Shown here: in pieces, positions 120-34,079 of the stretch
Layout of the letters: every line of letters begins with the position of its first letter
Position numbering within the stretch: position 1 is the first letter of the stretch
From: a virus
Strand: one strand, 5' to 3'
IMG/VR virus record: IMGVR_UViG_3300023202_000288
Span: 1-39,983 of that record
DNA length: 39,983 nucleotides
Translations under genes and position numbers: made by a program
The notes under the pieces: model-generated
Told to the model about the DNA's origin: nothing
Seen by the model: the letters and a program-made list of their open reading frames with translations, nothing else
The model's database searches: none

Positions 120-1739
120 TTAGTACATAACGTCAATGAAAGAGGGCATGTGCTGAAGAATATCAGAGAATAGATAAGCCACTTGTAAGTCAGCAGTATC
201 GCTAAGGTGTGTAGCCTGTTCCTGGGGAATGTTAGAACGTTCGCTGGATTTGTCTTTTTCTATGCCACGTGTAGACTCTTTGGCTGGTGCCTGTTCCATG
301 GATACAAATGTTTCATGGCAGTTGTTGAGGTTAAAACGGATGGTGGGGGTTTGGGCATCCTTAGACCTAAGCAACCTGGACCATAATAAGTACTTTTGTT
401 GATGGGTTAAGGGCGCTCCTTTGGATACAATATAGACCGTCCACCCAGCCTTTTTTAAGATTCGGGTAAACTGTTCAGCATAGGTAATATTGGAGTTGGC
501 CATTTGGGTATTGCCCGTGTGGTCATAGGCGAAATAAACAGTCTTTTCATTGTGGAAACGGTAGTAATGGCAAAACGAATCCGCTAAATCATCCAGTATA
601 TTGGGGTGCTTGACATAGAGGTTTTTTAAAAATCGCAATGTATTGCTGGAGCGTGAATACTGGCATACTGTCATACAGTTGATTTTACTGCCCCAATCCA
701 CGGCTATCCGGAGGGGCTGCCCTTTGACCAGGTCTCCGTCAAAACGGCAATCATTAGAACGCATTTCATCACTGCCATATTCCAGGTTTTTGATATAGCT
801 ATTGTCAAAGCTATGACGGTAGCCGTGCTCATAACGGTTGAGGTCGGGGTAAAAACCACCTTCTATTTTCTCAATACGCTGATTGAGGATTTCCACCATA
901 AATACGAAATCCGTCAGGTCCCGGAATTGCTGTTCAATAAAGCGCAGTCCTACATTGGAGAGGTTATCAAAAATATCAGCTTCCGAATAAAATTCGCCTT
1001 CTTTGGACTTGTAGAAACGGAGCATTTTTTTCAATCGGCAGATTTTTTCCCAATAATACAGCCTTTCTTTTTTGTCCTGGGTACGTAAAAAGCTTAATTG
1101 GTGCTGGATGATTTTTTTCCGCAAATACGTAAAATCATAGGTATAGTATTTACTTTTTTCCAGTAGCCAGGCACCTTCCTGCCCATAGGGCATAGAGGAA
1201 AAGTGAAAAGTGCCATGGTGCCAGGGCAAATGCCCGAAATGCCGCAAATTACCCCGGTTGGTAGATGATATTTCCCTATCAAATTTTTCCTTGTCCAGCA
1301 ACAGGCTTTCATCCGAAATAATGCCATCAATATTGAGGCCCCTGCTGGAGCCACCTCCAGCATCCTGGGAAGACAAATGAAAACCTGTGCCATTGCGGAA
1401 AATGATGAAATTATCATAGCTAAGCGGGGCCTCAAAAGGCTTTTCAAAATGCACCTTCGCGGGTGGTTTTTTGCGGATATAATAATCCCGTTCATACTCA
1501 TACCCTAATTTATTCAAAGCATTCAGGGTACCGGGCAGGGTACGGGTGAGCAGTTGCCGATACGTTTGCCCAGCAATCAGCCAGGCAGACCGGGGCATGG
1601 TTTCCACAATCAAATGTATCAAATACGCTATGATGAACGACTTGCCTGTTCCCCGGCTCCAAATGTTGGTAGATTCCCGGGGCTGGTTGACTACAAACCG
1701 CTTTTGGGGAACATTAAATTTCAGCGGTACCTTGTTCAT
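120..1739 (-). CDS. terL: Terminase large subunit (packaging ATPase/nuclease)
   Basis: This is the DNA-packaging motor: an N-terminal ATPase and a C-terminal RNase H-like nuclease that cuts concatemers at the portal. A Walker A motif (SRGTGKS) lies at about residues 28-34. A Walker B-like strand (DGIISDE) lies near residue 140. Nuclease acids are visible as IAVDWGS (about residue 347), FAYDHTG (about 405) and a C-terminal HLSDTADLQVAY segment, which is the usual place of the third acid. The length (539 aa) is normal for the family. Its start overlaps the end of the upstream small-subunit candidate by 26 bp. If the two window ends join, the next minus-strand genes are 39504-39812 and portal. 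The family call is firm; the packaging type (cos or pac) is not visible. Confidence 0.9.
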   Translation of the reverse strand: MNKVPLKFNVPQKRFVVNQPRESTNIWSRGTGKSFIIAYLIHLIVETMPRSAWLIAGQTYRQLLTRTLPGTLNALNKLGYEYERDYYIRKKPPAKVHFEKPFEAPLSYDNFIIFRNGTGFHLSSQDAGGGSSRGLNIDGIISDESLLLDKEKFDREISSTNRGNLRHFGHLPWHHGTFHFSSMPYGQEGAWLLEKSKYYTYDFTYLRKKIIQHQLSFLRTQDKKERLYYWEKICRLKKMLRFYKSKEGEFYSEADIFDNLSNVGLRFIEQQFRDLTDFVFMVEILNQRIEKIEGGFYPDLNRYEHGYRHSFDNSYIKNLEYGSDEMRSNDCRFDGDLVKGQPLRIAVDWGSKINCMTVCQYSRSSNTLRFLKNLYVKHPNILDDLADSFCHYYRFHNEKTVYFAYDHTGNTQMANSNITYAEQFTRILKKAGWTVYIVSKGAPLTHQQKYLLWSRLLRSKDAQTPTIRFNLNNCHETFVSMEQAPAKESTRGIEKDKSSERSNIPQEQATHLSDTADLQVAYLFSDILQHMPSFIDVMY

Positions 1740-2382
1740 CCTCGTATTTATCGTCCAGCATCTTTGCCATAACCTGGGTATCCACCTCTTCCACTTCTAT
1801 GGCGTCTACTACCTCGTAAAAGTCCTGTTTCTTCATTTTGTGCAGCTCTTGCAGGGGAATGGTCCGGGGTTGACCTTTTTGGTTATCACCCTGGTGAAAA
1901 TGAACCTCCAAAACGAAGTTATGCGGCTCAGTTTCCAAAGCAGTGATTTCCTCCTGCTGTTCAGATAATCTTATCATGTTAAATACCGCCTTATTCATTT
2001 CCTTCAGGTCTTTATCTTTTGCGGCCATCTGGTATACCTGCATTACGTACTCTTTCATGATAGCCAATTGCCCCCTTCTATTCACCACAGTAATATCCCC
2101 CCAAAGCGTGGTAGCTTCCCTCAACAGCTCATAAGCAGTGCGTGTGGATATGGGCTTTCCGGCATTCTCCTCGTCCCGCATCAATTTTTTTACAGCCTGG
2201 CCGGCAGAGTGAAAATTGCACAATAAGCTCCAAAGCCGTTCCATCCTATTCAAGCGCTCTAGGTCGCCTGCCCGTAAATCTTCCTCTTTAATCAGCCCAG
2301 TATAATAGGCGGCTATCCTGTCGCTGACGGTATCAAGTTCCGTGGCCTTTATCTTTCCCGACATAGTTTTAAAAAGTTTCAT
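1714..2382 (-). CDS. Putative terminase small subunit
   Basis: A 222-aa, helix-rich, charged protein directly upstream of terL and overlapping it by 26 bp, the position of the DNA-recognition subunit of terminase. The N-terminal half (about residues 10-110) is all-helical with a segment that could hold a helix-turn-helix (SAGQAVKKLMRD to RTAYELLREA). The C-terminal third is acidic (VDAIEVEEVDTQ and DDKYEDE near the end), as in small terminases that dock on TerL. A second in-frame ATG at 2364 (MSGKIKATELD) may be the true start if the promoter-like sequence at 2389-2421 is used. The assignment rests on position and shape, not on a recognised signature. Confidence 0.55.
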   Translation of the reverse strand: MKLFKTMSGKIKATELDTVSDRIAAYYTGLIKEEDLRAGDLERLNRMERLWSLLCNFHSAGQAVKKLMRDEENAGKPISTRTAYELLREATTLWGDITVVNRRGQLAIMKEYVMQVYQMAAKDKDLKEMNKAVFNMIRLSEQQEEITALETEPHNFVLEVHFHQGDNQKGQPRTIPLQELHKMKKQDFYEVVDAIEVEEVDTQVMAKMLDDKYEDEQGTAEI

Positions 2383-2493: not shown

Positions 2494-3108
2494 TTAGTCA
2501 AAAATACGTTTCTGCCTTTCTTTGAGGTTTTCCGGCTTCCCATTCCGCTTTTCCGGAAACTCTGTAGACATCATGGCCTTTTGCCTGTAATCTTCCTCAC
2601 CATCCACAATGGCCATGTTTGCCAGTTGGATACTTTCCTCAAAAAAGTGCTTCCACCCATATCCGGCACTCCTGCCTTTTTGTGTATGTTTGTCATGGGC
2701 AAACCCGGGAATAGGCTGCGGGTTGTTGTCATGGGTGCGCCAGTGGTATATCAAAGCATGGTCCACCACCCTTGATTTTTTGCTCCGGCACAACATTAAG
2801 ACGGCATGCGTTAGAAACAACCGCTCCGGACGAATGCGCTCGTCTTTCTTCTTTTTTAGCTGAATATAGCCCGCATACAAGCCCTGAATGTTGGCAGGGA
2901 TGTTAGGGTTGGCCAGCCCCACATCCTCAGAGGAAATGATGCGTATGCGCTTCCACAGGTACTCATCATAGCCACTTTCGTATATTTCCACCATCCAATA
3001 CAGTGCCTGGGTTTCATACCCTCGCCGAACGCATTTCTGAAAGGCTGAGGCCACCTCCAATAACTGGTGGCCTGAGCAGGTAATCATTTCGTATTTTGAA
3101 TTTGTCAT
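2494..3108 (-). CDS. Stand-alone RarA/MgsA C-terminal domain protein
   Basis: About residues 15-110 match the C-terminal half of the replication-recombination ATPase RarA (MgsA/WHIP, clamp-loader family). The run ALYWMVEIYESGYDEYLWKR followed by SSEDVGLANP corresponds to the ALYW...RR...SEDIG(L)ADP signature of bacterial RarA, and HAVLMLCRSKKSRVVD matches the following helix. The AAA+ ATPase half with its Walker motifs is absent, so the protein cannot hydrolyse ATP. A phage-type tail follows (HTQKGRSAGYGWKHFFEE). In RarA this region mediates tetramerisation and partner contacts. A role as a decoy or adaptor at the host fork is inference. A terminator (2445-2467) follows the gene. Confidence 0.7.
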   Translation of the reverse strand: MTNSKYEMITCSGHQLLEVASAFQKCVRRGYETQALYWMVEIYESGYDEYLWKRIRIISSEDVGLANPNIPANIQGLYAGYIQLKKKKDERIRPERLFLTHAVLMLCRSKKSRVVDHALIYHWRTHDNNPQPIPGFAHDKHTQKGRSAGYGWKHFFEESIQLANMAIVDGEEDYRQKAMMSTEFPEKRNGKPENLKERQKRIFD

Positions 3109-3143: not shown

Positions 3144-3797
3144 TTATATTAAGCGCAGCTGGGCGGGGTTCTCCCTCGCCCTGGATTTGGTATTCCTGTT
3201 GCACTTGATTAGCCAATTGACTGCTGCCTCCTCTGTGTTGCACCAAATTTTTAGGCCCCTGGCATTAATGGTAAGAAAATCATCTTCCTGTTTTTCTACT
3301 AATCCCAAAAGTTCACCCGTATGGCGGGAGCGCACCTCCACGGCCTGGTCATTTTCCAGAAAATAGGAGAACATACAATTTTTGGCCTGGTATGGTGGAA
3401 ACAGAAATTTGTAGGCTTTACGCTTGTGTGGCCGGATAACAATACTGTTTTGTAGCACCTGTACATCCACACGCATGTGCATATCAAAACCATGCTTGCA
3501 CAGCCAATTTCCTTTAATAGTGAGGCATGGATATTGGCTACTGCTAAAGCGGCTCCTGGTTTCAAAAGACGAAATTTTCAACTTTCTCTTTTCTTCTTTT
3601 GCCTTGGTTTTTCTATCAAATACAGACACCAAAATTTGATTTTGCCGTACACTCAGATACGCATACTTTCCAGCCTCAAAACCTGCCTCCTCAAACCATT
3701 TTCCACGAATCCTAAGAACAGGCACTTGCTTACGTGCAATGGCATTGCTGCCGGGCACTGAGATTTTACCAATCGTTAATTTTCTGATATTTTCCAT
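3144..3797 (-). CDS. Tandem SymE-like (AbrB-fold) protein
   Basis: Two consecutive SymE-type swapped-hairpin domains are visible. The first, near residues 1-60, has VPVLRIRGKWFEEAGFEAGK and then QNQILVSV. The second, near residues 75-125, has YPCLTIKGNWLCKHGF and then QNSIVIRP. The pattern P-x-[LI]-x-[IL]-x-G-x-W-[LF]...GF is the SymE core. SymE of E. coli is an SOS-induced toxin with an AbrB-derived fold that acts on RNA or nucleoid structure. The C-terminal 90 residues (from about YKFLFPPYQAK) are not recognised. The start at 3797 (MENIRKL) was chosen because the family begins M-x-x-RKL and because longer versions would include the upstream terminator. A duplicated domain in one chain is unusual. 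Confidence 0.6.
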   Translation of the reverse strand: MENIRKLTIGKISVPGSNAIARKQVPVLRIRGKWFEEAGFEAGKYAYLSVRQNQILVSVFDRKTKAKEEKRKLKISSFETRSRFSSSQYPCLTIKGNWLCKHGFDMHMRVDVQVLQNSIVIRPHKRKAYKFLFPPYQAKNCMFSYFLENDQAVEVRSRHTGELLGLVEKQEDDFLTINARGLKIWCNTEEAAVNWLIKCNRNTKSRARENPAQLRLI

Positions 3798-3814
3798 TTT
3801 GAACATATTAGGTG

Positions 3815-3843
3815 AAAATAAAAAAGGCGCTGCAAGCAGCGCC
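3815..3843 (-). terminator. Strong intrinsic terminator
   Basis: Minus strand: GGCGCTG, loop CTTG, CAGCGCC, followed by TTTTTTATTTT. It overlaps the space between the 72-aa gene (stop at 3853) and the SymE-like gene (start at 3797), leaving almost no room for a promoter in between. The SymE-like gene may therefore depend on read-through. Confidence 0.8.
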
Positions 3844-3852
3844 CCTGGGCAA

Positions 3853-4071
3853 TTATTTGGAAGGCTTTTGTTTAATAAACCGGAATGCACTCAGCTGGTC
3901 AGAAAAAACCCTCATATCATCTTTTCGGTTGATGGCATGAAACTCCTTACCACGCTTACGAAATTCGCCCAGCCGGTTGCCAGCATACTTCACGGTTACT
4001 GTATAGCCTACGCTTTCTAATGTGTAACCTTTCTTTACATTGTCGGGTACTCTTACGATTAAATTTCTCAT
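3853..4071 (-). CDS. Small hypothetical protein, 72 aa
   Basis: Not recognised. It is a basic, beta-rich protein starting MRNLIVRVPDNVKKGYTLES, with an even spread of charged residues (FRKRGKEFHAINRKDDMR). It may be a small OB- or SH3-like fold, but no signature was seen. It is followed within 10 bp by a strong terminator, so it ends a transcription unit. Upstream is a spacer (4072-4174) that resembles the spacer at 4811-4884. Confidence 0.6.
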   Translation of the reverse strand: MRNLIVRVPDNVKKGYTLESVGYTVTVKYAGNRLGEFRKRGKEFHAINRKDDMRVFSDQLSAFRFIKQKPSK

Positions 4072-4184
4072 TGTATTATTGTTTAGTTATTGAATGATTA
4101 TACTGTAAATGTCTCCCACCAAAACGGATGATAAAAACCATAGCAACTTGATTTCCTACCCGTATCCTACACTGTTAAAAGGGC
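4072..4184 (-). repeat. Imperfect intergenic repeat, copy A
   Basis: On the minus strand this spacer starts at the end of the 4175-4810 gene with CCCTTTTAACAGTGTAGGAT and later has TGGTTTTTATC and GGTGGGAGACATTT. Copy B at 4811-4894 has the same blocks in the same order (CCCTTCTAGTGTAGGTTA, TGATTTTTTTTACC, GGTGAGAGATATTT). Both copies lie between the stop of one gene and the start of the next. Confidence 0.45.
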
Positions 4185-4810
4185 ACTTCTGTATTATCCG
4201 AAGGGTTTAATGGCCTGAAAAACGTATCAAAGAAATCATGCACGAAATCGTAGGATAAGGGAAAACCAACCAGCGCACGCATGCGGTCGCTCAATCGCTC
4301 GTGCTCCTGTTGTATGGAAGCGCTGTAAGCCTGTGGCCCTTCCGGAAAGTCCACCATAAAAGCCACCAGATCATCGGTGGTAACTTCCGTAAAATTGGTG
4401 CTCATATTAAGCGCCTGCACATCCAGTGGCGTACCATCCTCATTAATATAATTCCGCTTCAAAGAAGGGGTAGCACAATTTCGGTCACCAAAACGACAAA
4501 AGCTCTTCCAGGTGGTAGGGCGGATATGGTCGGCAATTACTGATTGCTTGCTCCCTACCAAATCCTTCCAGTCGTTAAGTTGGTGGTATTCCCTGATAAG
4601 CACAACCGGGTCATCCGGGCCACCTTCCATAAAGGCACGTTCCACCGCTGGCCCCAGCTTATAAATACTCACCTGGTAATGCCTGGCCAGCATGTTCATT
4701 TTGCGGGAAAAAGCAATCTTTTTGCCCACCTTACTGGCAAACTCACGGTACTGCTGGTCTGAGAAATTTCGTTTCTTTTTAACTTGTTCTTTGTAGGCCA
4801 TTATTTCCAT
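4175..4810 (-). CDS. Hypothetical protein downstream of glycosyltransferase
   Basis: No family recognised. The 211-aa chain starts with a basic helical stretch (AYKEQVKKKRNFSDQQYREF) and has a middle part with a conserved-looking motif (SVIADHIRPTTWKSFCRFGD) and a Cys (RNCATP). The C-terminal part is acidic and aromatic-rich (HDFFDTFFRP). There is no signal peptide or TM segment, so it is probably cytoplasmic. It lies 74 bp after the TAGT-like glycosyltransferase in the same direction, so a shared role is possible but unproven. ATG at 4801 (MAYKEQ) is an alternative start. Confidence 0.6.
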   Translation of the reverse strand: MEIMAYKEQVKKKRNFSDQQYREFASKVGKKIAFSRKMNMLARHYQVSIYKLGPAVERAFMEGGPDDPVVLIREYHQLNDWKDLVGSKQSVIADHIRPTTWKSFCRFGDRNCATPSLKRNYINEDGTPLDVQALNMSTNFTEVTTDDLVAFMVDFPEGPQAYSASIQQEHERLSDRMRALVGFPLSYDFVHDFFDTFFRPLNPSDNTEVPF

Positions 4811-4894
4811 CTATGACAGAAATATCTCTCACCGCACCAGGTAAAAAAAATCATTTCAGCGTCTGAAGCTACGCTTAACCTACACTAGAAGGGC
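4811..4894 (-). repeat. Imperfect intergenic repeat, copy B
   Basis: Second copy of the spacer element described at 4072-4184. Minus strand: CCCTTCTAGTGTAGGTTAAG, then a T-run, then GGTGAGAGATATTTCTG just before the ATG at 4810. TATTTCTG is one base off the TAnnTTTG -7 box, so the shared block may be a promoter or leader. Confidence 0.45.
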
Positions 4895-5628
4895 AAATAA
4901 ATAGTTTTTTCAAAAGGATGGTTTCGCTTTCGCAGCTTGGTGTCTTCTTTCAGCCGGATTACATCCTTGCCGAACTTATCCACCAAATACTTATAGTCCG
5001 CTTCCTCTGTTTTGAGGTTGCGGAACTCCGCCAGGCCGCCGGGGTTTTTGTGGGTCTGCTGCTGCATGAACGTAAAGCGCATATCCTTGTAACAATACCG
5101 ATGGTGGTAGGCATTTAAAGCAGATATCCAAAAATCTTCGTTCACCACCACATTGGTATCATAATACAGCTTACTTCCCTCCAGCAACCCATGCGCACAG
5201 CCGGTAACGTAACCTGTCAAACTGATGGGTTTATGGCTGCGGTAGCTGGCAGGGTTGGGGTTTTTATTGAAACCAAACAAATACGCCCCGGCCTGCCTGG
5301 CAGCATCAGCCGTAGCGTAGATTATATCCCTGGCCGTATTACGGGACCGGACACGGGCCTTTTTTAAAGGGTACAAACGCCTCATATCCCTAATATCATC
5401 ATCCAACATAAACACATTGCCGAAATGCTCATAAATCCACTGTCTTTTGGCTGTCAGCCCCACTACAGAGTCCGGATGGGTTACCAGCACATCATCGCCC
5501 CAGTAACGGGCGTAATCTTTTTTTTGGCTCTCAGGTATGCAAATCACAGCATCGGCCACCACCTGCATGGTATGTACCCGCTCGGGCCTTTTGTGGGATG
5601 GTATTACGATTTGTACGGGATTGCTCAA
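4885..5628 (-). CDS. TAGT-like GT-A glycosyltransferase, candidate DNA-base modifier
   Basis: A 247-aa GT-A-fold glycosyltransferase. The N-terminal strand has VIPSHKRPER, a typical nucleotide-sugar-binding start. NVFMLDDDIRDMRRLY (about residues 70-85) holds the DxD-type metal site. VVNEDFWISALNAY (about residue 160) and the later HKNPGGLAEFR fit the second half of TET/JBP-associated glycosyltransferases (TAGT), which are known from phages and linked to base hypermodification. The start is TTG at 5628: its bases overlap the stop of the upstream ParB-like gene (TTGA), and the next ATG would remove the VIPSHKRP motif. No TET/JBP oxygenase was seen here, so the acceptor is open: hypermodified DNA, or a protein or wall substrate. 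Fold moderately sure, substrate unknown. Confidence 0.6.
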   Translation of the reverse strand: MSNPVQIVIPSHKRPERVHTMQVVADAVICIPESQKKDYARYWGDDVLVTHPDSVVGLTAKRQWIYEHFGNVFMLDDDIRDMRRLYPLKKARVRSRNTARDIIYATADAARQAGAYLFGFNKNPNPASYRSHKPISLTGYVTGCAHGLLEGSKLYYDTNVVVNEDFWISALNAYHHRYCYKDMRFTFMQQQTHKNPGGLAEFRNLKTEEADYKYLVDKFGKDVIRLKEDTKLRKRNHPFEKTIYLPF

Positions 5629-6272
5629 GGTTTTTTAGCTTTGTTCAGTTGTTCCAAAAAGTCATAAGCGCGGATTACATGGGTACGTCCAATATGCTCG
5701 GTTTTATAGCATTTGGCATTTTTCACGCCTAACAGCTCGGCCACGTGCGTAGCATCAATTTCATTATCAGAAATAATGACAAAAGCGTCATACTTTTCAG
5801 AAAACCGGGGAACGATTTGATACTCCGGCTCCTGCCCATCTTCAAAACCCAGGGCTTCCAGGGCATCATCCTGCTGGCCAACCAGGTCATCCACTCCCCC
5901 AATATCCAACCCAATATCCTCCAGGTCTATTTCAGTGTACAGTTCCTCCAGGATTTGCTTGTCCCATTCCCCTTCATGAATGTTGGAAGAAATAATGATT
6001 TCCTTGCGCTCACCATCAGAAAGCGGACGCTCCGGCACCCGCACATCAATTTCAAATTCTAAACTTTCAAGCTCACAAAGTAAATGATACCTTTTGTTGA
6101 AGGTTAACAACTCGTTGTTGATGTCAATGGTGGGAATCTCAAAAATACCCAGCTTCCGTATTTTTTGGCGCAGCCGGTCTTTGTTCTCCACCGATATTTT
6201 ACCAAAAGGATTATTTTCCAGCGGTACCAGCTCCCTCAGCTTTCGCCTTTCCGTCAACCAATTCAGCCTCAT
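5625..6272 (-). CDS. ParB/sulfiredoxin-like domain protein
   Basis: A 215-aa protein with an N-terminal ParB-like domain (residues about 8-105). LRELVPLENNPFGKI corresponds to the L.p.pNPR strand, DRLRQKIRKLGIFEIPTID to the helix and strand after it, and FNKRYHLLCELE sits where canonical members have GHRRLxALxxLG. In this copy the Gly-His is replaced by Asn-Lys. Phage ParB-like domains of this kind often occur beside DNA-modifying enzymes and can act as nucleases or CTP-type switches. The acidic middle (residues about 110-150) and the C-terminal part are unknown. It is coupled to both neighbours: its ATG overlaps the previous stop (ATGA) and its stop overlaps the glycosyltransferase start (TTGA). 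Confidence 0.6.
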   Translation of the reverse strand: MRLNWLTERRKLRELVPLENNPFGKISVENKDRLRQKIRKLGIFEIPTIDINNELLTFNKRYHLLCELESLEFEIDVRVPERPLSDGERKEIIISSNIHEGEWDKQILEELYTEIDLEDIGLDIGGVDDLVGQQDDALEALGFEDGQEPEYQIVPRFSEKYDAFVIISDNEIDATHVAELLGVKNAKCYKTEHIGRTHVIRAYDFLEQLNKAKKP

Positions 6273-6868
6273 TTCTCCTTCTTTTTCAGCAACTGCTCCA
6301 GTTGGTCGTTTTCTACCCTTCTCCGGAGAACTTCATCAATTTTATCGGGCCGGTCTTTAAACCGGGAAATATACCCCCGGTTGTTTAAAATGCGTTGCTT
6401 CATTTCCGCCCGGTCCTTGGGCAACGCCTTATCCTTTTTCAGGGGTTTCCGCCCATAGAGGAAATCCTCAACCTGCTTTGTAAGCTCCAAAATACGAAAA
6501 GCGTGCCCTTTACGCTCACCCTCCGTTTGCACCTGCATCAGCTGGGCATGCAGCATAGAACGCTCCTGGTACAGCTTTTTCACCTCTGGGTGGTTCGCCA
6601 GCCCTTTTGGCTTTGGGTCTCCTTCCTCCGGACGGGTTACCGATTTCACCGTTTTTATCCTGGGCTTTCCCTTGGGTGGCTTTTGGGCTAACTTTAATAG
6701 CTCCTCCATCAGTTTGGAACGGTTGTATGAGGTATCACCAATCCGTTCAAACATCCTTTTCAAACCTTCATTTTTCCCAAACTTCTGGTACAATGCCATG
6801 CCCTCTGTCCAGTTTTTTTCACCGCCAAGGTACTTTATAATCGTATCTAGTTCCTGTTTGTAAAGCAT
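6269..6868 (-). CDS. Conserved-looking Bacteroidetes phage protein
   Basis: A 199-aa basic, mostly helical protein. The N-terminal segment (WTEGMALYQKFGKNEGLKRM and then YNRSKLMEELLKL) has the look of a small protein often seen in Bacteroidetes prophages, but no function is known to me. The middle is Pro/Lys-rich (KPPKGKPRIKTVKSV). The C-terminal half is a coiled-coil-like helix ending in basic runs. The start at ATG 6868 was preferred over the TTG at 6892. It overlaps the ParB-like gene by 4 bp (ATGA), so the two are probably co-translated. Confidence 0.6.
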   Translation of the reverse strand: MLYKQELDTIIKYLGGEKNWTEGMALYQKFGKNEGLKRMFERIGDTSYNRSKLMEELLKLAQKPPKGKPRIKTVKSVTRPEEGDPKPKGLANHPEVKKLYQERSMLHAQLMQVQTEGERKGHAFRILELTKQVEDFLYGRKPLKKDKALPKDRAEMKQRILNNRGYISRFKDRPDKIDEVLRRRVENDQLEQLLKKKEK

Positions 6869-8106: not shown

Positions 8107-9081
8107 TTAAACGGTCTCCAGGTCGTTGGTAAAGACAATTTCAGGAATCAGAAAATCAATACCCTTATAAAAGTCCGTCCAGATTTTTACCTTCCGGTCC
8201 TCCCCTTCTACTTCAACCCGGTTTTCGTTCACCGATTTTTTCATCAGCCGGATAGCATTCTCTTTGGGTGTACACCAAATAATTTCAGCCCCCCGGTGCG
8301 AAGGCAGCCCCCTTAACCGCAAATTGGTGAAGTCAACGGCAGCGTTGGTGTTTTTGGTATAATCCGCATGGGTACCATATTTGGCAGCATACCCCCTCAA
8401 AAACTGGCGGTGGCGCAATGGGCTGCAAGCAATCTCCATAGGCAAGCCCCAGTATTTATCATTAATCTGGTCTGCAAAGTCCTCAAAATATTCGCAAACC
8501 AAATATTCCACAGACTTATCCCCAGAGGGCGCTGCAGGAAATGCCCCCATGGTAATGGGCGTAATCCTACCTCCTGCAATATGGGCATTCCGGATGGTCT
8601 TAATGCCATTAATGGCCGTTCCGGCAGCCCCTGCAGTACCAGGCGTAGGCGCTGCATACACACCATCAAAAACTTCATTGTTCTCAAAATCTTCGTGCAT
8701 TTGGGGCAATATCTCTTTTTCTATTAACCAGCGGACAAACGGCCATTCTGCCCGGCTCAGGTTATTGTCAGCCAGAAATCCCAACCAGGTAGCCTCCAGC
8801 TCGTCCGGGTATTCCTCAAAATCCATTTTGATGGGGTACTGGGTAATGGCAATCGGGGTAAATTCTAGGGTGCCGATGGGCGTCCATCCCTTTTGAAAAG
8901 GCTGGAGCAATCGGTCAATTTGTGCCCGTGTAGCCCGGTACACCGTATCATCGGTAATGCGGGAAGTAAACAATTCTTCCGTAACAGACCTGTCCCGGAG
9001 CGTACGCACAATGCGGCTTTCGTTCTGGCCCTGGGCGATGTAGTACGCCCCAAATTCAGTAATTACATCTGCAACATTCAT
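8107..9081 (-). CDS. Major capsid protein (HK97-fold candidate)
   Basis: A 324-aa soluble protein placed directly after the prohead protease/scaffold gene, where HK97-type major capsid genes lie. The N-terminal part is helical (N-arm), the middle has WLGFLADNNLSRAEWPFVRW and a long helix (EKEILPQMHEDFENNEVFDG), followed by a Gly/Ala-rich loop. The C-terminal part ends in strands (KVKIWTDFYKGIDFLIPEIV), as in the A-domain of many capsids. No single diagnostic motif is visible; size, composition and neighbours support the call. Confidence 0.7.
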   Translation of the reverse strand: MNVADVITEFGAYYIAQGQNESRIVRTLRDRSVTEELFTSRITDDTVYRATRAQIDRLLQPFQKGWTPIGTLEFTPIAITQYPIKMDFEEYPDELEATWLGFLADNNLSRAEWPFVRWLIEKEILPQMHEDFENNEVFDGVYAAPTPGTAGAAGTAINGIKTIRNAHIAGGRITPITMGAFPAAPSGDKSVEYLVCEYFEDFADQINDKYWGLPMEIACSPLRHRQFLRGYAAKYGTHADYTKNTNAAVDFTNLRLRGLPSHRGAEIIWCTPKENAIRLMKKSVNENRVEVEGEDRKVKIWTDFYKGIDFLIPEIVFTNDLETV

Positions 9082-9110: not shown

Positions 9111-9536
9111 TTAATTTTCCTGGATGGGCGTAAAAATGGGGTTGCCGTCCAGCGCCTTGTTATGTGGCAAATCATCTATCACCTGTTGTGATGAAGGCGT
9201 GCCATAATTATCGCCTCCAGGTTTGCCCGGCTGGGTGTGGCTATCCCCCGGCTCGCTGCCCAGCTCTTCTACCTGCTGTTGCAAGGCTTCCCTTTCCTGC
9301 TCCAGGTTTGTTATCCTCTCCTCAGCGGTAGACAGTGCAGCCCTTGCCGTGTCCAGTTCATTCTCCAGGGTTTCAACGCGCTCTGTTTCTGCTTCCAGTT
9401 CGGTATCAAGCAACAAGGTTACCCCCTGGATACCCATTTGCTCAATTTCTTCATTCACTGCCTGCACCAGCTCTGGAGTGAGGGATTCTGCCCCGGCCAG
9501 GGCGGTAAGTTTTGGGAATTTATTTTTCGTAAACAT
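9111..9536 (-). CDS. Possible nested scaffold protein (internal start)
   Basis: An in-frame ATG at 9536 (MFTKNKFPKLTALAG) lies right after the Asn/Ser linker of the protease and after an AT-rich stretch (CATAATTCTAATTCT) of the kind found before Bacteroidetes starts. It would yield a 141-aa scaffold protein, in the way that lambda Nu3 is nested in gene C. This is inference from domain layout. Confidence 0.35.
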   Translation of the reverse strand: MFTKNKFPKLTALAGAESLTPELVQAVNEEIEQMGIQGVTLLLDTELEAETERVETLENELDTARAALSTAEERITNLEQEREALQQQVEELGSEPGDSHTQPGKPGGDNYGTPSSQQVIDDLPHNKALDGNPIFTPIQEN

Positions 9537-10457
9537 AGAATTAGAATTATGATTTGATGAAACTTGGTTTGCAATAAAAGTACTGTCGGGCTGGGTAGCA
9601 TTTGCCAATTCCTGCGCCCGATGTATGGCCTGCTGCAAAGTGCCAATGCTATCAGCCAGCCCCATTTCAATGGCAGCCTCGGCAATGAACATGCGGCCAT
9701 GCAATGCCTCATCTTTAACCGATGGCCTGGCATTGCGCACAGCATCCATAAACACTTCGTTGATGGGGTTGAGCTCGTTTTCCTGAATGGGTTTGTAATT
9801 GCCCTTTAGCAGCTCCAAAAAGTCCCGGTTTTTCTCATAGGCTTCTTCAGCGAAAACCGTATGGAACTTTACGCCCATTTTTTCATACACAGGCTTAAAG
9901 TCAGTAAGGCTAACCACCGTACCAATACTTCCCACAAAAGAAGTTTGGTTTGAAAGCATGATTTCAGATGCACCGCTCACTACCCAGTACCCGGCAGAGG
10001 CAGCCATGCCGTCTACCCAGGCAACTACTGGTTTACGCATGCCGGCCACCGTATCTGCCAGGTCCTTAGTGCCATCCACCGTGCCCCCCGGCGTGTCTGT
10101 TACCAACACCACCGAACCAATGTTGGGGTGTTCATCCAGCATGCGCAGCCGGTCGCCCAGGGTGGCCATGCCCAGAATGCCACAAAAATCATTTTTTTCA
10201 AGCACCCCCTCAGCCCGCACAATGCCCGTGCTTTGGGGCGGGGCCTCGTCCGGGTTATCAAAAAAAGTAAGTTCTCCAGCCTGAGGCTTTACTGTACCAA
10301 ATCTTCCATTGGCGGATATATTGCCTCCAATGAGCTGGTGTACATTTTCTCCCTGTAGCCAGGCGGCCACTACGGGTAGTAATTCCTGTGCCGTAATAGG
10401 TTCTATCAACCATCGGCCACGTACGATGGCAAGTAACTGACGGATATTATTTTGCAT
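9111..10457 (-). CDS. S49-family prohead protease with C-terminal scaffold
   Basis: The first 280 residues are an S49 (SppA/ClpP-fold) peptidase. VVLVTDTPGGTVDG forms the oxyanion strand, WVDGMAASAGYW carries the catalytic Ser (about residue 154), and the Lys of the EEAYEK segment (about 210) fits the Ser-Lys dyad. In phages this enzyme cleaves scaffold and capsid N-termini during head maturation. After an Asn/Ser-rich linker (residues about 300-307), the rest is a scaffold-like acidic coiled coil (about 345-410) and a Gly/Pro-rich tail. An in-frame ATG at 9536 after the linker would give scaffold alone. The gene stands directly before the capsid gene. Confidence 0.85.
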   Translation of the reverse strand: MQNNIRQLLAIVRGRWLIEPITAQELLPVVAAWLQGENVHQLIGGNISANGRFGTVKPQAGELTFFDNPDEAPPQSTGIVRAEGVLEKNDFCGILGMATLGDRLRMLDEHPNIGSVVLVTDTPGGTVDGTKDLADTVAGMRKPVVAWVDGMAASAGYWVVSGASEIMLSNQTSFVGSIGTVVSLTDFKPVYEKMGVKFHTVFAEEAYEKNRDFLELLKGNYKPIQENELNPINEVFMDAVRNARPSVKDEALHGRMFIAEAAIEMGLADSIGTLQQAIHRAQELANATQPDSTFIANQVSSNHNSNSMFTKNKFPKLTALAGAESLTPELVQAVNEEIEQMGIQGVTLLLDTELEAETERVETLENELDTARAALSTAEERITNLEQEREALQQQVEELGSEPGDSHTQPGKPGGDNYGTPSSQQVIDDLPHNKALDGNPIFTPIQEN

Positions 10458-10517: not shown

Positions 10518-11159
10518 TTATTCCACGGCTTCCGTTACGCCCACAATCACCTCCTGCTCTGCCCAATTTCCTTCATCATCGGTTACCCGGATGGTGTAGG
10601 TGCTGGGTGCCAATCCGGCAAAATCAGCAGAAGCCTGGGGCGTGTTGCCGTCCAGTTGGTATTGATAAGGCGCTACGCCATTGGCTACAGAAACAGAAAT
10701 TTCACCATCAGCTGCACCCTCTTCAGATGCCTTAACAACCGCAGCATCATTGAGCACCACAGGTTGGAAGAAATCACCAGACGGCATAGCGTAAATAACA
10801 GTATTACCCGGCGTGCCCCGCATGCCATCACCGCCAAACTCCGGCAGACGCCTGATCAGGCCGTTCATTATGGACTTACTGGAGAACTCGCCCACACTGA
10901 TGGGCGGCACCACGTGGTAAAAAGGCAGGTAGTTCATTTCAATGTACTCATCCCGTTTCGTTTTCAGAATTTGCCCGGTAACCTTTCCAATCATGCTGCG
11001 GACAAAGCCCACATGAATACGCTTGTTTACCAAATCCGGCACAAAGCGGTCAATCACATAGCGAATAATGATGCCGTCCTGGTCTTCATATTCCAGCTTT
11101 CTTGTGTCATAGTCTACAGTAACTTGTACCGATAAATTTTTATAGTTAAATGTGTCCAT
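10518..11159 (-). CDS. Head-associated protein with C-terminal SprB-type repeat
   Basis: Residues 1-140 are an unrecognised globular part (RYVIDRFVPDLVNKRIHVGF and FQPVVLNDAAVV). Residues about 145-205 form one Ig-like SprB-type repeat: ISVSVANGVAPYQYQLDG, then FAGLAPSTYTIRVTDDEGN. SprB repeats are named from the gliding adhesin of Flavobacterium, and phages use Ig-like modules for weak surface attachment. The gene is the last before the prohead protease, 58 bp away, so it may be a capsid decoration or minor structural protein. Confidence 0.6.
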   Translation of the reverse strand: MDTFNYKNLSVQVTVDYDTRKLEYEDQDGIIIRYVIDRFVPDLVNKRIHVGFVRSMIGKVTGQILKTKRDEYIEMNYLPFYHVVPPISVGEFSSKSIMNGLIRRLPEFGGDGMRGTPGNTVIYAMPSGDFFQPVVLNDAAVVKASEEGAADGEISVSVANGVAPYQYQLDGNTPQASADFAGLAPSTYTIRVTDDEGNWAEQEVIVGVTEAVE

Positions 11160-28770: not shown

Positions 28771-30252
28771 TTACAAATTAGTCCGAAACAATGTAACCTT
28801 GGCCGGTTGGATTCCCTCTTTCATGTTGACCGAAAAAGCGTACTCGCCCAAAAAATACCGTTGGTACAACCGCATGATTTTTTTCTGCCAGTCCAGCTCC
28901 ATAAAATCTTTTATGGGGAACTGCATTTGGGTTTCTACGGCCACGGTACGGCTGAGAAAGTCCAGCCAGGCTTGCCATGATTGCACGTACAAGCCCTTGC
29001 CTGTGTCGTAGCGTAGGGCAATTTCCGTGCCTTCACTGCTGCCCCTGGGGTAAGCGTTTCCGGTGCTGTCGGCTTGCAGGCCACGGTAAAACAGCAGGCG
29101 TAAACCATAATCGCCTTCTACCTCAAAGGGTGCTGAGTTTCCTGTTTGGGCGGCCTCCGGAATGGTCCAGGTGCGGTTGGTGTTGATGGTGTCCTGGTGT
29201 TTGGTTTCAAAGAGGGTGCCCGCAGCGGTGTGGAACTCATTGCCGCCTGCATCAATAGCGAAACTAAAAGGGGCCGTGGAACGCTGGTTGTACATATCGT
29301 CCCGGGAGTCTGTTCCCATGGCCAGGGAAAAGCCGTTTTCATAGCGGTTTCCTTTCTCATAAGCCTGCCCGGCCATGTATGTGATGTTTTTGTATCCACC
29401 ATCCTTTAAAATCGTTGAGAGTGGCTCTATTTGGACCATCCGGGTAATGGGATTGATGAAGAAACCAATGCAAAACAGGTTTTGCAGGGCCACCAGGAAC
29501 TGCCCTACGGAAATATTTGGCATGTGGTCGGCATATTTGAATGAGGAAGCGTAACGGTTGAGCACGCCCGTGATGCGGTCCAGGCTTTGGGTGTTGTAAA
29601 TTACCAGTGAGCGGATATCGGTTTGTTGTGTCCAGCTTCCGGTAATGCCGTAATAGCCCAATTGCTGAAACAAACGGTTCAGGATGTAGAGCAAAAAGGG
29701 GTAAGGGACCAGCGTATGGTTATTGGCCGAGGTGTTGGTGCCAAACGCGCCCTGGTCGTAATAATTGACATACCCCAGATAATCGGGGTTGGCATCCCCG
29801 TAAAAATCGGCATTCTTGACAGGGAAAAAAGTATAATTTACATCCGGATAGGTAAGCTCGGGTTGGAAGTTTACGGCCGCAGTGCCCAGGTCGTAATCCG
29901 CTAATTTTTTATCCTTGATGGCCGTGGCCACGTCCCCGGCATCGGTATGAAAACTTACGGTGCAATCATCTTTTGTGGCCTTTCGCACTTTTAGCTTTCC
30001 AATGCGCCACAGGTGCAGGCCCTTGCCGAAGTGCAGCCCTACATTGTCCAGCGTTGGCCAGGGCGTTTCATCATCTAAGCGCTGCACATGGCCAATCAGG
30101 CGTTTGTTGACAGCATCCAGCGGGAGGCGGAAATCATAGACCCGGGTGCCGGGTATGGAATCGCCACCGAACATGGGGTTTTTGGCCGATACGTTGATGG
30201 ACGTATTTTCAAATAGTGTGAGGTATTGGCCTTGGTAGCGTAGTCCGATCAT
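28771..30252 (-). CDS. Distal tail / tail hub-like protein
   Basis: 493 aa starting MIGLRYQGQYLTLFENTSIN, with VYDFRLPLDAVNKRLIGHVQ. This start (I-x-L-x-x-x-G-x-L-x-L-x-x-x-T-x-I-x-x-x-x-N-P-x-F) is a pattern I know from Bacteroidetes phage tail proteins that follow the tape measure. The later part has two beta-rich blocks (PVKNADFYGDANPDYLGYVN; GRFLVALQNLFCIGFF-like region) and a C-terminal strand (FSVNMKEGIQPAKVTL). It overlaps the SprB-repeat gene by 4 bp (ATGA). It may be the hub that carries the fibre. Confidence 0.5.
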   Translation of the reverse strand: MIGLRYQGQYLTLFENTSINVSAKNPMFGGDSIPGTRVYDFRLPLDAVNKRLIGHVQRLDDETPWPTLDNVGLHFGKGLHLWRIGKLKVRKATKDDCTVSFHTDAGDVATAIKDKKLADYDLGTAAVNFQPELTYPDVNYTFFPVKNADFYGDANPDYLGYVNYYDQGAFGTNTSANNHTLVPYPFLLYILNRLFQQLGYYGITGSWTQQTDIRSLVIYNTQSLDRITGVLNRYASSFKYADHMPNISVGQFLVALQNLFCIGFFINPITRMVQIEPLSTILKDGGYKNITYMAGQAYEKGNRYENGFSLAMGTDSRDDMYNQRSTAPFSFAIDAGGNEFHTAAGTLFETKHQDTINTNRTWTIPEAAQTGNSAPFEVEGDYGLRLLFYRGLQADSTGNAYPRGSSEGTEIALRYDTGKGLYVQSWQAWLDFLSRTVAVETQMQFPIKDFMELDWQKKIMRLYQRYFLGEYAFSVNMKEGIQPAKVTLFRTNL

Positions 30253-33200
30253 AGTTTTTCCACTGAAAAATCATCAATGTAAATGTATTCTCCCTGATGA
30301 GCTGAAATTGTAGTTCCAGGATACCTGATAATTAATTGATATGCTCCATTCCCACCACCAGATCTGTATGCCCTAGTTTCAAGCTCTTGCCAAACATCTT
30401 TCAATAACGGATTGGCTGCCTTAACAAAAGTATTAGTCCATTGAACACCTGGCTTTGTGATCCATAATTGTAAGTCATTTGATTGTGCACCAGTTTGGGG
30501 TGAAAGATCTATTCCAGTGGGAATATAAATTTTAACCTTGAATACATATATCTCATTATTTACCAAGCCGGGCACAAATAGATCTTCCGAAACAAATATT
30601 GAACCACTGGGAGTACTATTGTTATAGGTTGATTTTAGGGACTTTGTACCAGAAAAAACGGGGTTCGTGACAATTTCAACATCAAAATTGTTGTTAATTT
30701 TCGGCGCAACATCTGCATAGGTAGCATTTTCAAATGTGCCATTATCAAAGTATGGAAATAAACTATCTGGCTGGCCAACTTCAATATTATTGACCACTTT
30801 TTGCAGTTGGGGATCAGTGCTATCAGTAACCGTTACATTGTAAGTGCCTGCGGGCAGGTTATCAATATCTTTTGTGGTTGCTCCATGACCCCAGGCATAG
30901 GTATATGGAGGTGTGCCGCCAAATACTGTCAATTCAATAGCCCCGTTGCTTTCACCGTATGTGCTGGCGTCTGTTACTTCAGCGGAAACCTGTAAATCAT
31001 CAACCGGGGCTGGGTTTTCTACGATTTCAACAGTAAGTTGTTTGCTTTTTTGGGGCACGGAATTATCAAAAACCTGTACTGTATATGAACCAGGTGCCAG
31101 GCCGGAAATATCCTGCGTATTGGCCCCATTGCTCCAATTATATACATAAGGCTCTGAGCCACCTATCATGGCCAAATCAATAGACCCGTTGTCTTCACCT
31201 TCTATGCTGTGGGTAACGTTTGCGGTTAATTCTAATGAATCTACCGGGTCGGCTGTGTCGCCAACCAAAATACCGCAAATTTTGGCGGATTTTCTGGGAG
31301 CACTACTATCCAGAACCCTTACGGAATAAGTGCCTGCGGGAATACTTACATTATCTTTTGTAGTTGCCCCGTTGGACCAGAGATATGAGTAAGGGGGGGT
31401 GCCATCACTGACCTGGAGCGTTATAAACCCATCGGAATTTTCGCCGGATGCATCCCGTATGCGGTCAACACTGACAACCAGGTCATCGGGCACTAACACC
31501 GCAGACAGTTTCGGCGTAAATTTATCAACCCGGGCGCGCTGGTAGGTGAACTCAAATGGGATTAAATTTTCACCCTCATCCTGGATAGTATCATCGGTTT
31601 CTACCAGTACAGGAATCCAGCGGGAGCCTTCCCAGAGGAAAACTGCGGGGGAAACGATAAAGTCCTGAAGGGCTTGCATCATTTCAGGCTCTGGATAGCC
31701 AACAGGTACTTGTACTTCGGGCTGGGCATATTTGCGGATTACTTCCTGTTGGGCATCCTGCACGGTGTAGTCATGAGGTAATAACTTTTCAAGGGTCTGC
31801 TGGTTGGCTTTGAGTTTGTATTCTGCTTTGCCGGTGCAGGCCAGGGTATCGCATCCGCCCAATGAGTTGAGGTATAGGAAAAATTTGCGGTAGCGGTAAT
31901 TGGTATAGTCCAGAATGTAAGTGCGGGTTTCGCTGGCCAGGATGTTGTCCTGGTTTTCTACCCAAATATCGTATCGGTCCAGTACTTCGCAGCTGTACCC
32001 CTCCAGGTATAGCTGATGGTAGCCGGCCGGAAAGGAATACACTTCAAAGCGGTTTAGCCCGCCTGTTTGGGAAAAAAGGGTGTGTTCTTCTTCTGTATCA
32101 TCGGTGAAATAGAGTTTGATTTTTACATGAAAGGCTGTCATCAGAAAATCATTCACCAGGAAATACAGGTACTCGGGCTGGTCGGGTAATACTACCTTTT
32201 CTACAGGCTGCCAGGTGTAAAAGGGTTTGGTAACGTCCAGGTAGGTGAGGAAAAAAGTGTCTTCGGCGTACTCTTCGAAGCTCAACCCACCTAACAGGAC
32301 ATAAAAAGTATCTATTTGCACGGCGGTGTCTTCAACTGGTGGCGTGCCATATTTTTCCTGGCTCTGGAAGTAGAACCGCTTGAACAATGGGTCTTCCCGC
32401 ACAATGCCTGGCTGGTACATTTCTGGTAAGGAGCGGTTGACATAGGCAGACAATACATCCTGCATATCAAAAACCGTAGCACCGTCATCATCAGCGGGCT
32501 GCTCGGCGGCATGTACCTGGATGAAATTGCCAGACATATATTCCAGCTCTACAAACACCTTACAGAGAAAGCTCAGATTGGGTTTGGTGGGTAGGTTATC
32601 GGCCTGGAGTTCTAATACCACGGGGTTTTCACTGAAATAATGGCGGGGCGGGCTAAGCTTGATTTTTTTTACCACTGTGCAGCCATTGCTATCGGTTACG
32701 GTAAGCTGGTAGGTGCCCGGTTGCAGGTTGGTGCGGTTTTGGGAAGTGGGGCCGTCTGCCCATTGAAAACTGTAGGGGGGAATGCCGCCGGATACGGTGA
32801 TATTAATATCATCCTCGGCCACGCTGCTGGTTATTTTGATGGGTGGATTTTCGGTAATCCCCACTTCAAAATCAGCACTTACCCCGTGGGTGTTGGTGAT
32901 GGTAAGGGTGTAGGTGCCTGCGCGTAAATCATCCCGGATGCTTCCACTGCCTCCATCACTCCAGATAAATTCATAGGGGGCATTATCGCCCTGGGTAACG
33001 AGGTTGACCGTTGCCACACCAATGGCCTTGCCACCGCATTGGATGTGGTCGGTTTCAATGCTGACATCATCCCCGGCCACAATGGTAAAATCATCGGATA
33101 CGATGCAGGCGTTTACGGCTTTGTCGCGCACCCAAACCGTGTAATCACCCGCAGGTAAATTGGTAAATTCATTGACATCTTGAAAGTTGGTATTATCCAG

Positions 33201-34079
33201 GCTGTACTCCATTTCACGGTTGGATGTGGCGTTGATTATGACCGAGCCGTCATTTTTGCCGGAAAAGCTTTCATTTTGGACGAGCAATGTATCAATGGCT
33301 GTTTCGCAAGGGGTGGCCGTGATGGAAAAAGCCTGCTGGGCATTACATTTGGTTTGGTTGGTATCCCGCACGTAAATGGTATAATCCCCGTCTGCCAGCC
33401 CTGAGAAAACATTACTGGCCTGCCAGGTGGAATTGTCCAGGCTGTATTCCAGCGTATTGCCTGAAGTGGCGTTGATGGTAGCCTCCCCGTCATTTTGGCC
33501 GGGTGCGGATTCGGGCGTGGTGGATATATCTGTAATCAGCAGGTTACATGCCGGCTGATTGATAGTAAAGGAAATGCTCTTGGTTTGTTCCGTTAACGGC
33601 TCATAAAAGCTCAGGGTATAGTTGCCCGCAGCCTTGTTGATGCCAGTACGTTGTGGGATATCAGGGTCGTCAAGGGTATACCCTTTAGAAGAAGGTGATT
33701 TGGCTACATAGCCGGTGCCGTGTAGAAAAGAAATATCATAAGCTCCGTCGTTTTCAAGATACCCTGAAAGATCGGTAACCTGTACTGACAACTCCAAATC
33801 ATTCCACCCCTGGGAAACGACATTGGCATAAGGCTCGGTGTCCTGTGTAATCACCTTGTAAAGCGTACCCCCCAACAGATGCATGTATATGGGCGTACCT
33901 TCATCGGGTTTGGCATTTTGGACTTCATACCTATTCAACCAAATGGGAACATCCTGGCTCGCTACATTGGTGCCACAATTATAGTCGGTAATTTGTGAGG
34001 AAAATATCTGGGTTTCTTCATCGTAGCTAATTTTAATCAGCTTTGTACCATTGCAGTAATACAGGTTTTTGGTAGCCAT
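30249..34079 (-). CDS. Large tail adhesin with seven SprB-type repeats
   Basis: A 1276-aa fibre or adhesin. Four Ig-like SprB-type repeats lie at about 175-495, followed by an unrelated middle part (about 500-880), and three more at about 885-1125. Typical units read GGTPPYTYAWGHGATTKDID, then LPAGTYNVTVTDS. SprB repeats are known from the gliding adhesin of Bacteroidetes. The last 150 residues (from YFDNGTFENATYADVA) look like a carbohydrate-binding jelly-roll (DDFSVEKL at the very end). The DNA for this tip is much more A/T-rich than the rest, suggesting exchange of the receptor-binding end. It overlaps both neighbours. Confidence 0.75.
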   Translation of the reverse strand: MATKNLYYCNGTKLIKISYDEETQIFSSQITDYNCGTNVASQDVPIWLNRYEVQNAKPDEGTPIYMHLLGGTLYKVITQDTEPYANVVSQGWNDLELSVQVTDLSGYLENDGAYDISFLHGTGYVAKSPSSKGYTLDDPDIPQRTGINKAAGNYTLSFYEPLTEQTKSISFTINQPACNLLITDISTTPESAPGQNDGEATINATSGNTLEYSLDNSTWQASNVFSGLADGDYTIYVRDTNQTKCNAQQAFSITATPCETAIDTLLVQNESFSGKNDGSVIINATSNREMEYSLDNTNFQDVNEFTNLPAGDYTVWVRDKAVNACIVSDDFTIVAGDDVSIETDHIQCGGKAIGVATVNLVTQGDNAPYEFIWSDGGSGSIRDDLRAGTYTLTITNTHGVSADFEVGITENPPIKITSSVAEDDINITVSGGIPPYSFQWADGPTSQNRTNLQPGTYQLTVTDSNGCTVVKKIKLSPPRHYFSENPVVLELQADNLPTKPNLSFLCKVFVELEYMSGNFIQVHAAEQPADDDGATVFDMQDVLSAYVNRSLPEMYQPGIVREDPLFKRFYFQSQEKYGTPPVEDTAVQIDTFYVLLGGLSFEEYAEDTFFLTYLDVTKPFYTWQPVEKVVLPDQPEYLYFLVNDFLMTAFHVKIKLYFTDDTEEEHTLFSQTGGLNRFEVYSFPAGYHQLYLEGYSCEVLDRYDIWVENQDNILASETRTYILDYTNYRYRKFFLYLNSLGGCDTLACTGKAEYKLKANQQTLEKLLPHDYTVQDAQQEVIRKYAQPEVQVPVGYPEPEMMQALQDFIVSPAVFLWEGSRWIPVLVETDDTIQDEGENLIPFEFTYQRARVDKFTPKLSAVLVPDDLVVSVDRIRDASGENSDGFITLQVSDGTPPYSYLWSNGATTKDNVSIPAGTYSVRVLDSSAPRKSAKICGILVGDTADPVDSLELTANVTHSIEGEDNGSIDLAMIGGSEPYVYNWSNGANTQDISGLAPGSYTVQVFDNSVPQKSKQLTVEIVENPAPVDDLQVSAEVTDASTYGESNGAIELTVFGGTPPYTYAWGHGATTKDIDNLPAGTYNVTVTDSTDPQLQKVVNNIEVGQPDSLFPYFDNGTFENATYADVAPKINNNFDVEIVTNPVFSGTKSLKSTYNNSTPSGSIFVSEDLFVPGLVNNEIYVFKVKIYIPTGIDLSPQTGAQSNDLQLWITKPGVQWTNTFVKAANPLLKDVWQELETRAYRSGGGNGAYQLIIRYPGTTISAHQGEYIYIDDFSVEKL

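Follow-up and report, generated by a model that had tools for sequence, protein, structure and literature searches.

A coupled ParB-like protein and TAGT glycosyltransferase recur beside phage packaging genes as a candidate cassette for DNA glycosylation

The stretch analysed here (the window) is 39,983 nucleotides of the IMG/VR virus record IMGVR_UViG_3300023202_000288, and between its capsid and terminase genes it encodes a ParB-like protein whose gene overlaps that of a glycosyltransferase of the TAGT family (Table 1). The same pair lies beside the DNA-packaging genes of many phages of unrelated bacteria. For the cassette built around it, we consider the most likely function to be a late glycosylation of phage DNA, targeted by ParB; sugars probably shield the DNA of these phages, attached by a route not yet worked out. 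The argument for DNA glycosylation is drawn from the TAGT match and its T-even active-site residues, from the near-universal ParB partner, from the proximity of the otherwise rare TAGT to the RarA-derived domain MgsA_C, from the gene layout of mycobacteriophage Nigel, from the ParB domain in DNA methyltransferase models, and from sugar genes that are coupled to the cassette in relatives.

The glycosyltransferase matches Pfam family PF20691 over profile positions 2-205 of 205 (E 1.8e-21; 77.5 bits, with a cut-off of 27.5), and it also matches phrog_842, which PHROG names beta-glucosyl-HMC-alpha-glucosyltransferase (HMC, hydroxymethylcytosine). The catalytic residues PSxxR, DDD, D165, GG and R203 are common to the T-even TAGT family and are intact in the TAGTs of the cassette; within the DDD motif, window residues 77-78 are invariant and residue 76 is kept in 61/63. 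A sequence-only reading of the window had proposed a TAGT-like GT-A glycosyltransferase with a DDDI motif, and the two family matches and the conserved motif bear this out. Matches confined to cell-wall glycosyltransferases were not the outcome; the families found are those of TAGT and beta-glucosyl-HMC-alpha-glucosyltransferase, whose T-even relatives adjoin a gene for deoxycytidine monophosphate (dCMP) hydroxymethylase. The TAGT gene overlaps the hydroxymethylase gene in the T-even phage SG1 and lies next to one in phage ctUhy936. The T-even enzyme adds a second glucose to glucosylated hydroxymethylcytosine (PMC13216743, PMC13390438). Most cassette TAGTs also carry a conserved C-terminal tail, such as QKTLKLPF, which reads EKTIYLPF in the window (4888-4920). 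A clamp-binding-like motif at this end, Q[KR][TS]hxhP[FY], fits only 22 of 61 TAGTs, and in the window its Q is replaced by E; the motif is not claimed.

The ParB-like protein matches ParB-like families in PHROG, and its AlphaFold model (pLDDT 83) matches ParB/Noc structures in Foldseek (E 9e-6 to ~1e-4) and sulfiredoxin more weakly, in agreement with the ParB/sulfiredoxin-like identity first proposed for it; its relatives match ParB_N. Homologous domains are found at the N-terminal end of models for phage DNA methyltransferases (phrog_498 and PADLOC PDLC03229). A defence-system reading was set aside, as PADLOC gave no match to the cassette genes of the window apart from that of ParB to the N-terminal region of a methyltransferase model. 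Another homologue is gp1 of Nigel (hhalign 1e-9 to the cassette ParB), which is followed by gp2, a TET/JBP-type oxygenase, gp3, a P-loop nucleotide kinase, and gp4, a terminase. Gp2 (L136:776-1744; L numbers denote the related loci compared) matches Pfam Tet_JBP at 4.3e-6, below the curated cut-off, and has the sequence motif HRD...H...R; its matches to TET-like dioxygenases in PDB are weak (E 0.3-0.4). The PHROG label of gp2, queuine tRNA-ribosyltransferase, looks wrong and was set aside because of the Tet_JBP match and this motif. Since Nigel has both a ParB-like protein and a TET/JBP-type enzyme, ParB is argued not to be the oxidase itself. The module thus occurs beside a methyltransferase, a TET-type oxygenase and a glycosyltransferase, which supports a proposed targeting role and suggests that ParB is a general partner of enzymes that modify DNA.

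The PHROG name, ParB-like partition protein, would suit a gene for plasmid-type partition of the prophage, with its link to TAGT being incidental. This was already disfavoured and is extremely improbable. The CTP-binding GxxR motif of canonical partition CTPases is altered in the window protein (FNKR), no ParA appears among the 25 of 45 families listed from a Pfam scan of the 50 window proteins, and the same scan shows that the phage encodes an integrase. Moreover, partition would leave the conserved overlap of the two genes, and their association in nearly all relatives, as coincidence.

Related loci were gathered with a TAGT query, with a separate MgsA_C query (the C-terminal domain of RarA/MgsA), and from bacterial genomes. 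A ParB-like gene lies directly upstream of TAGT in all 35 viral loci that have enough upstream sequence, overlapping it in 32, and likewise in 23 of 24 loci from bacterial genomes, so that the two sets together give 58/59. MgsA_C lies within 10 kb of TAGT in 23 of the 35 viral loci. In the MgsA_C-seeded loci with enough upstream sequence, TAGT and ParB are each found within 10 kb in 41/44, although this query was built from cassette members, so the set does not sample MgsA_C genes at random. Near-duplicates remain among the loci; 61 ParB-TAGT pairs have a TAGT identity below 85%. For a base rate, four TAGTs exceeded the Pfam cut-off in 395 Bacteroidota genomes sampled without bias. One of these (G072, 512 amino acids) resembles a cellular enzyme; ParB precedes each of the remaining three, which include a divergent ParB-TAGT-TerS-TerL arrangement (TerS and TerL, small and large terminase subunits).

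The order in Cytophagales prophages is S49 protease, capsid, ParB, TAGT, a family of 211-amino-acid proteins, a SymE-like protein, MgsA_C, TerS, TerL and portal, with MgsA_C and the 211-amino-acid gene sometimes swapped, and the window matches it. The hosts include Hymenobacter, Runella, Spirosoma, Larkinella and Arundinibacter, among others. ParB-TAGT-MgsA_C is also present in loci from metagenome-assembled genomes of Planctomycetota and Chloroflexi, and Streptococcus phage Javan291 has ParB-TAGT-146 amino acids-TerL, with its ParB annotated as a DNA modification methylase. The cassette occurs with unrelated terminase types, GpA-type and Terminase_6N-type. ParB, TAGT and often MgsA_C are the only families that recur in most loci. 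Their distances are correlated (Mantel r 0.69-0.83), which fits inheritance as a unit but would also be expected for any co-inherited genes. Arundinibacter roseus alone carries five cassette-bearing prophage loci (L114-L118).

In the window, the sequence-only reading had drawn four co-directional genes, the first three joined by stop/start overlaps. All four open reading frames are present on the minus strand; the junctions of the upstream 207-amino-acid gene with ParB (ATGA) and of ParB with TAGT (TTGA) each overlap by 4 nucleotides, and a gap of ~74 bp separates TAGT from the 211-amino-acid gene. As first drawn, however, the cassette was too short: it missed the co-conserved MgsA_C, the SymE-like gene in between, and the recurrence of the 211-amino-acid family. 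The proposal of a DNA-modification cassette stands as the best reading, with the TAGT and ParB identities right, while its boundaries were too narrow.

Table 1. Genes of the cassette and its flanks in the window
Feature	Coordinates	Strand	Remarks
Helical/coiled-coil protein, 207 amino acids	6269..6892	-	ATGA overlap (4 nucleotides) with ParB; alternative ATG start 6868, TTG start 6892
ParB-like protein	5625..6272	-	ParB/sulfiredoxin-fold N-terminal domain and conserved C-terminal domain of ~60 amino acids
TAGT GT-A-family glycosyltransferase	4885..5628	-	PF20691, phrog_842; TTG start overlaps ParB stop (TTGA)
All-helical protein, 211 amino acids, kept in cassette	4175..4810	-	Family c16; C-terminus -EVPF
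Protein with two SymE-like domains	3144..3890	-	PF08845 1.9e-17
MgsA_C (RarA/MgsA C-terminal domain without AAA+ ATPase)	2494..3108	-	PF12002 5e-12
Putative terminase small subunit	1714..2382	-	Family c14 3e-26; adjoins TerL in relatives
Terminase large subunit	120..1739	-	Terminase_6N 5.5e-4, slightly below cut-off; family c6 1.3e-114
Major capsid protein, upstream flank	8107..9081	-	Family c13 1.3e-26; syntenic in relatives; capsid role inferred from position
S49 peptidase, probable prohead protease, flank	9111..10457	-	PF01343 5.5e-27; syntenic

The sequence-only reading had also remarked that the window has no oxygenase or nucleotide hydroxymethylase, and this holds: Tet_JBP, searched for directly, was not found in the window, whereas the Nigel control was positive (below the curated cut-off), and neither kind of enzyme, nor an alpha- or beta-glucosyltransferase, is among the 25 listed Pfam families. 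For the two glucosyltransferases the search was limited to the window. Among cassette records, Tet_JBP was found in 0/50 and dCMP hydroxymethylase (PF00303) in 0/49, with a positive T4 control. The absence of known hydroxyl-making enzymes across the ~50 records is well supported but not proven, since many of the records are fragmentary and the sensitivity of the TET model is only moderate.

To our knowledge, all characterised DNA glycosyltransferases need a hydroxyl. The acceptor could then come from a hydroxylase of the phage or its host that has escaped recognition, with T-even or TET chemistry behind a hidden first step. This explanation, which overlaps with the favoured one and is one of two forms that the latter could take, is a tentative but real possibility: remote oxygenases can escape Pfam, and the Nigel enzyme itself falls below the curated cut-off. 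It has to contend with the negative searches for TET and hydroxymethylase just described, and with the lack of any further family that recurs in most loci. Somewhat unlikely is the proposal that ParB and TAGT form a self-sufficient pair, needing neither oxygenase nor hydroxymethylated nucleotide: the sugar would go onto a ring atom or an exocyclic amine of an unmodified base, or ParB would itself activate the base. Site selectivity of ParB might then spare the host of a temperate phage.

Sugar genes accompany the cassette in many relatives. A PIG-L deacetylase and a WbqC-like protein are each found with it in ~15 loci; WbqC overlaps ParB in 11 loci, and where these also have PIG-L, it lies immediately upstream of WbqC. 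Five loci have a nucleotide-sugar epimerase that overlaps the cassette or lies next to it, and altogether such genes (PIG-L and WbqC, or the epimerase) overlap or adjoin it in ~20. Their presence would fit a product that is a glycosylated base, in some cases also deacetylated. PIG-L, WbqC and the epimerase are all absent from the window, where a nucleotide-sugar of the host would presumably be used.

PIG-L, WbqC and nucleotide-sugar epimerases also occur in surface polysaccharide loci, which lends some colour to lysogenic conversion, that is, an alteration of the host envelope by lipopolysaccharide glycosylation leading to superinfection exclusion. This is nevertheless very unlikely. The sugar genes overlap ParB-TAGT in one operon, which lies in the virion-gene block and not beside the integrase; TAGT is not a GtrB-type enzyme; and the cassette neighbourhoods examined had no flippase or GtrAB-like genes that we noticed.

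Since the cassette sits between the capsid and terminase genes, it would be expected to act on DNA that is about to be packaged. ParB would bind and select phage DNA and bring the translationally coupled TAGT to it; TAGT would take a sugar from a nucleotide-sugar and attach it to a base; MgsA_C and the 211-amino-acid protein would probably fit the complex to DNA undergoing replication or recombination; and the modified DNA would be protected from restriction in the next host. The same location also speaks for the main alternative, namely that the substrate of TAGT is a protein of the virion or of packaging (capsid, portal or terminase) and that the late position of the gene follows from this target. 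The failure to find an enzyme that makes a DNA hydroxyl also points in this direction. We judge protein glycosylation unlikely all the same: the TAGT family acts on DNA in T-even phages, the universal partner is a DNA-associated ParB-like protein, Nigel has a TET-type enzyme in the same slot beside ParB, and the cassette does not follow any one terminase type.

Several points weigh against DNA glycosylation. The cassette TAGTs are only ~25% identical to the T-even ones and branch apart from two sampled hydroxymethylase-linked TAGTs (support 99/96, with a long-branch warning), and therefore their substrate may differ. The window ParB reads FNKR where its relatives typically have GHxR. An acceptor-making enzyme is neither known nor found in cassette phages, and shared descent of a phage backbone could partly underlie the gene order. 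DNA is thus the inferred substrate.

The MgsA_C protein of the window matches the RarA structure 3pvs (6.5e-12), aligned to its C-terminal part; only MgsA_C was matched in Pfam, and the AAA+ ATPase domain of RarA/MgsA was not found in this gene. It is counted as a cassette member because the window follows the Cytophagales order and MgsA_C co-occurs with TAGT. The 211-amino-acid protein matches family c16 (E 3.6e-33), which is found in 13 loci and recurs in the same slot; its AlphaFold model is all-helical (pLDDT 87), and no PDB fold match for it was found. Members of the family share a conserved C-terminal -xPF tail, in many cases acidic, that resembles the C-terminal peptide of SSB.

Other accessory genes were seen near the cassette. 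A small SymE-like open reading frame overlaps or abuts MgsA_C in many related prophages, and SymE-like proteins may be regular members of the cassette rather than toxins. Between TAGT and MgsA_C, L014 (12258-13064) and 10 other loci encode an N6-methyltransferase-like protein (PF02384, partial), which by eye seems to lack the NPPY catalytic motif; the window is without it. An Amidoligase_2 (PF12224; 5e-20 in L046) is near the cassette in four loci (L046, L053, L089 and L096) and could further elaborate the modification. Upstream of ParB, the 207-amino-acid protein of the window has a weak profile match (E 5e-4) to family c20, which takes this position in 10 Bacteroidota phage loci, and a BLAST match in L101 (9e-6).

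The terminase lies at one end of the window and a portal-like gene at the other, an order that fits a closed genome; a terminal repeat was looked for and none was found. SprB repeats, which are typical of Bacteroidota adhesins, match two window proteins, probably those at 30249-34079 and 10518-11159 (minus strand).

TAGT without an alpha- or beta-glucosyltransferase was reported in 288 of 753 phage genomes, with its chemistry left open (PMC13216743, 2026). The cassette gives a context for some of these TAGT-only phages, with fixed partners and a minimal set of two genes, and it is present in named isolate lysogens of Runella, Hymenobacter, Arundinibacter, Larkinella and Tenacibaculum and in Streptococcus phage Javan291. 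Hypermodification has been described as conceptually problematic in temperate phages (PMC3918226). Should DNA be the substrate, glycosylated DNA would extend to temperate phages, and either a new hydroxylase or a hydroxyl-independent route would be revealed. The comparisons also suggest that ParB-like proteins serve methyltransferases, TET-type oxygenases and glycosyltransferases alike as an interchangeable targeting partner.

The families involved are all known; what is new is their combination and the missing hydroxyl step, tempered by a possible earlier mention of ParB-TAGT. Iyer et al. in 2013 reportedly predicted TET-associated glycosyltransferase systems, with the TAGT family and with ParB-like proteins as neighbours. 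These systems differ in that no TET was found with the cassette, and MgsA_C and the 211-amino-acid family are not known to be part of them. The T-even TAGT is of the same family (PF20691/phrog_842), has the same catalytic residues and is likewise translationally coupled to a partner gene, but that partner is a dCMP hydroxymethylase and the sugar added is a second one, whereas the cassette partner is ParB and no hydroxymethylase was found. RarA/MgsA shares a homologous C-terminal domain with a phage gene of only ~200 amino acids that has no AAA+ ATPase. The ParB-methyltransferases of phrog_498 and PDLC03229 have a homologous ParB-like N-terminal domain; the cassette lacks their methyltransferase domain and has a separate TAGT gene instead. 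In Nigel the effector is an oxygenase and not a glycosyltransferase, and no TAGT was found, but there too a ParB homologue overlaps a base-modifying enzyme just upstream of the terminase.

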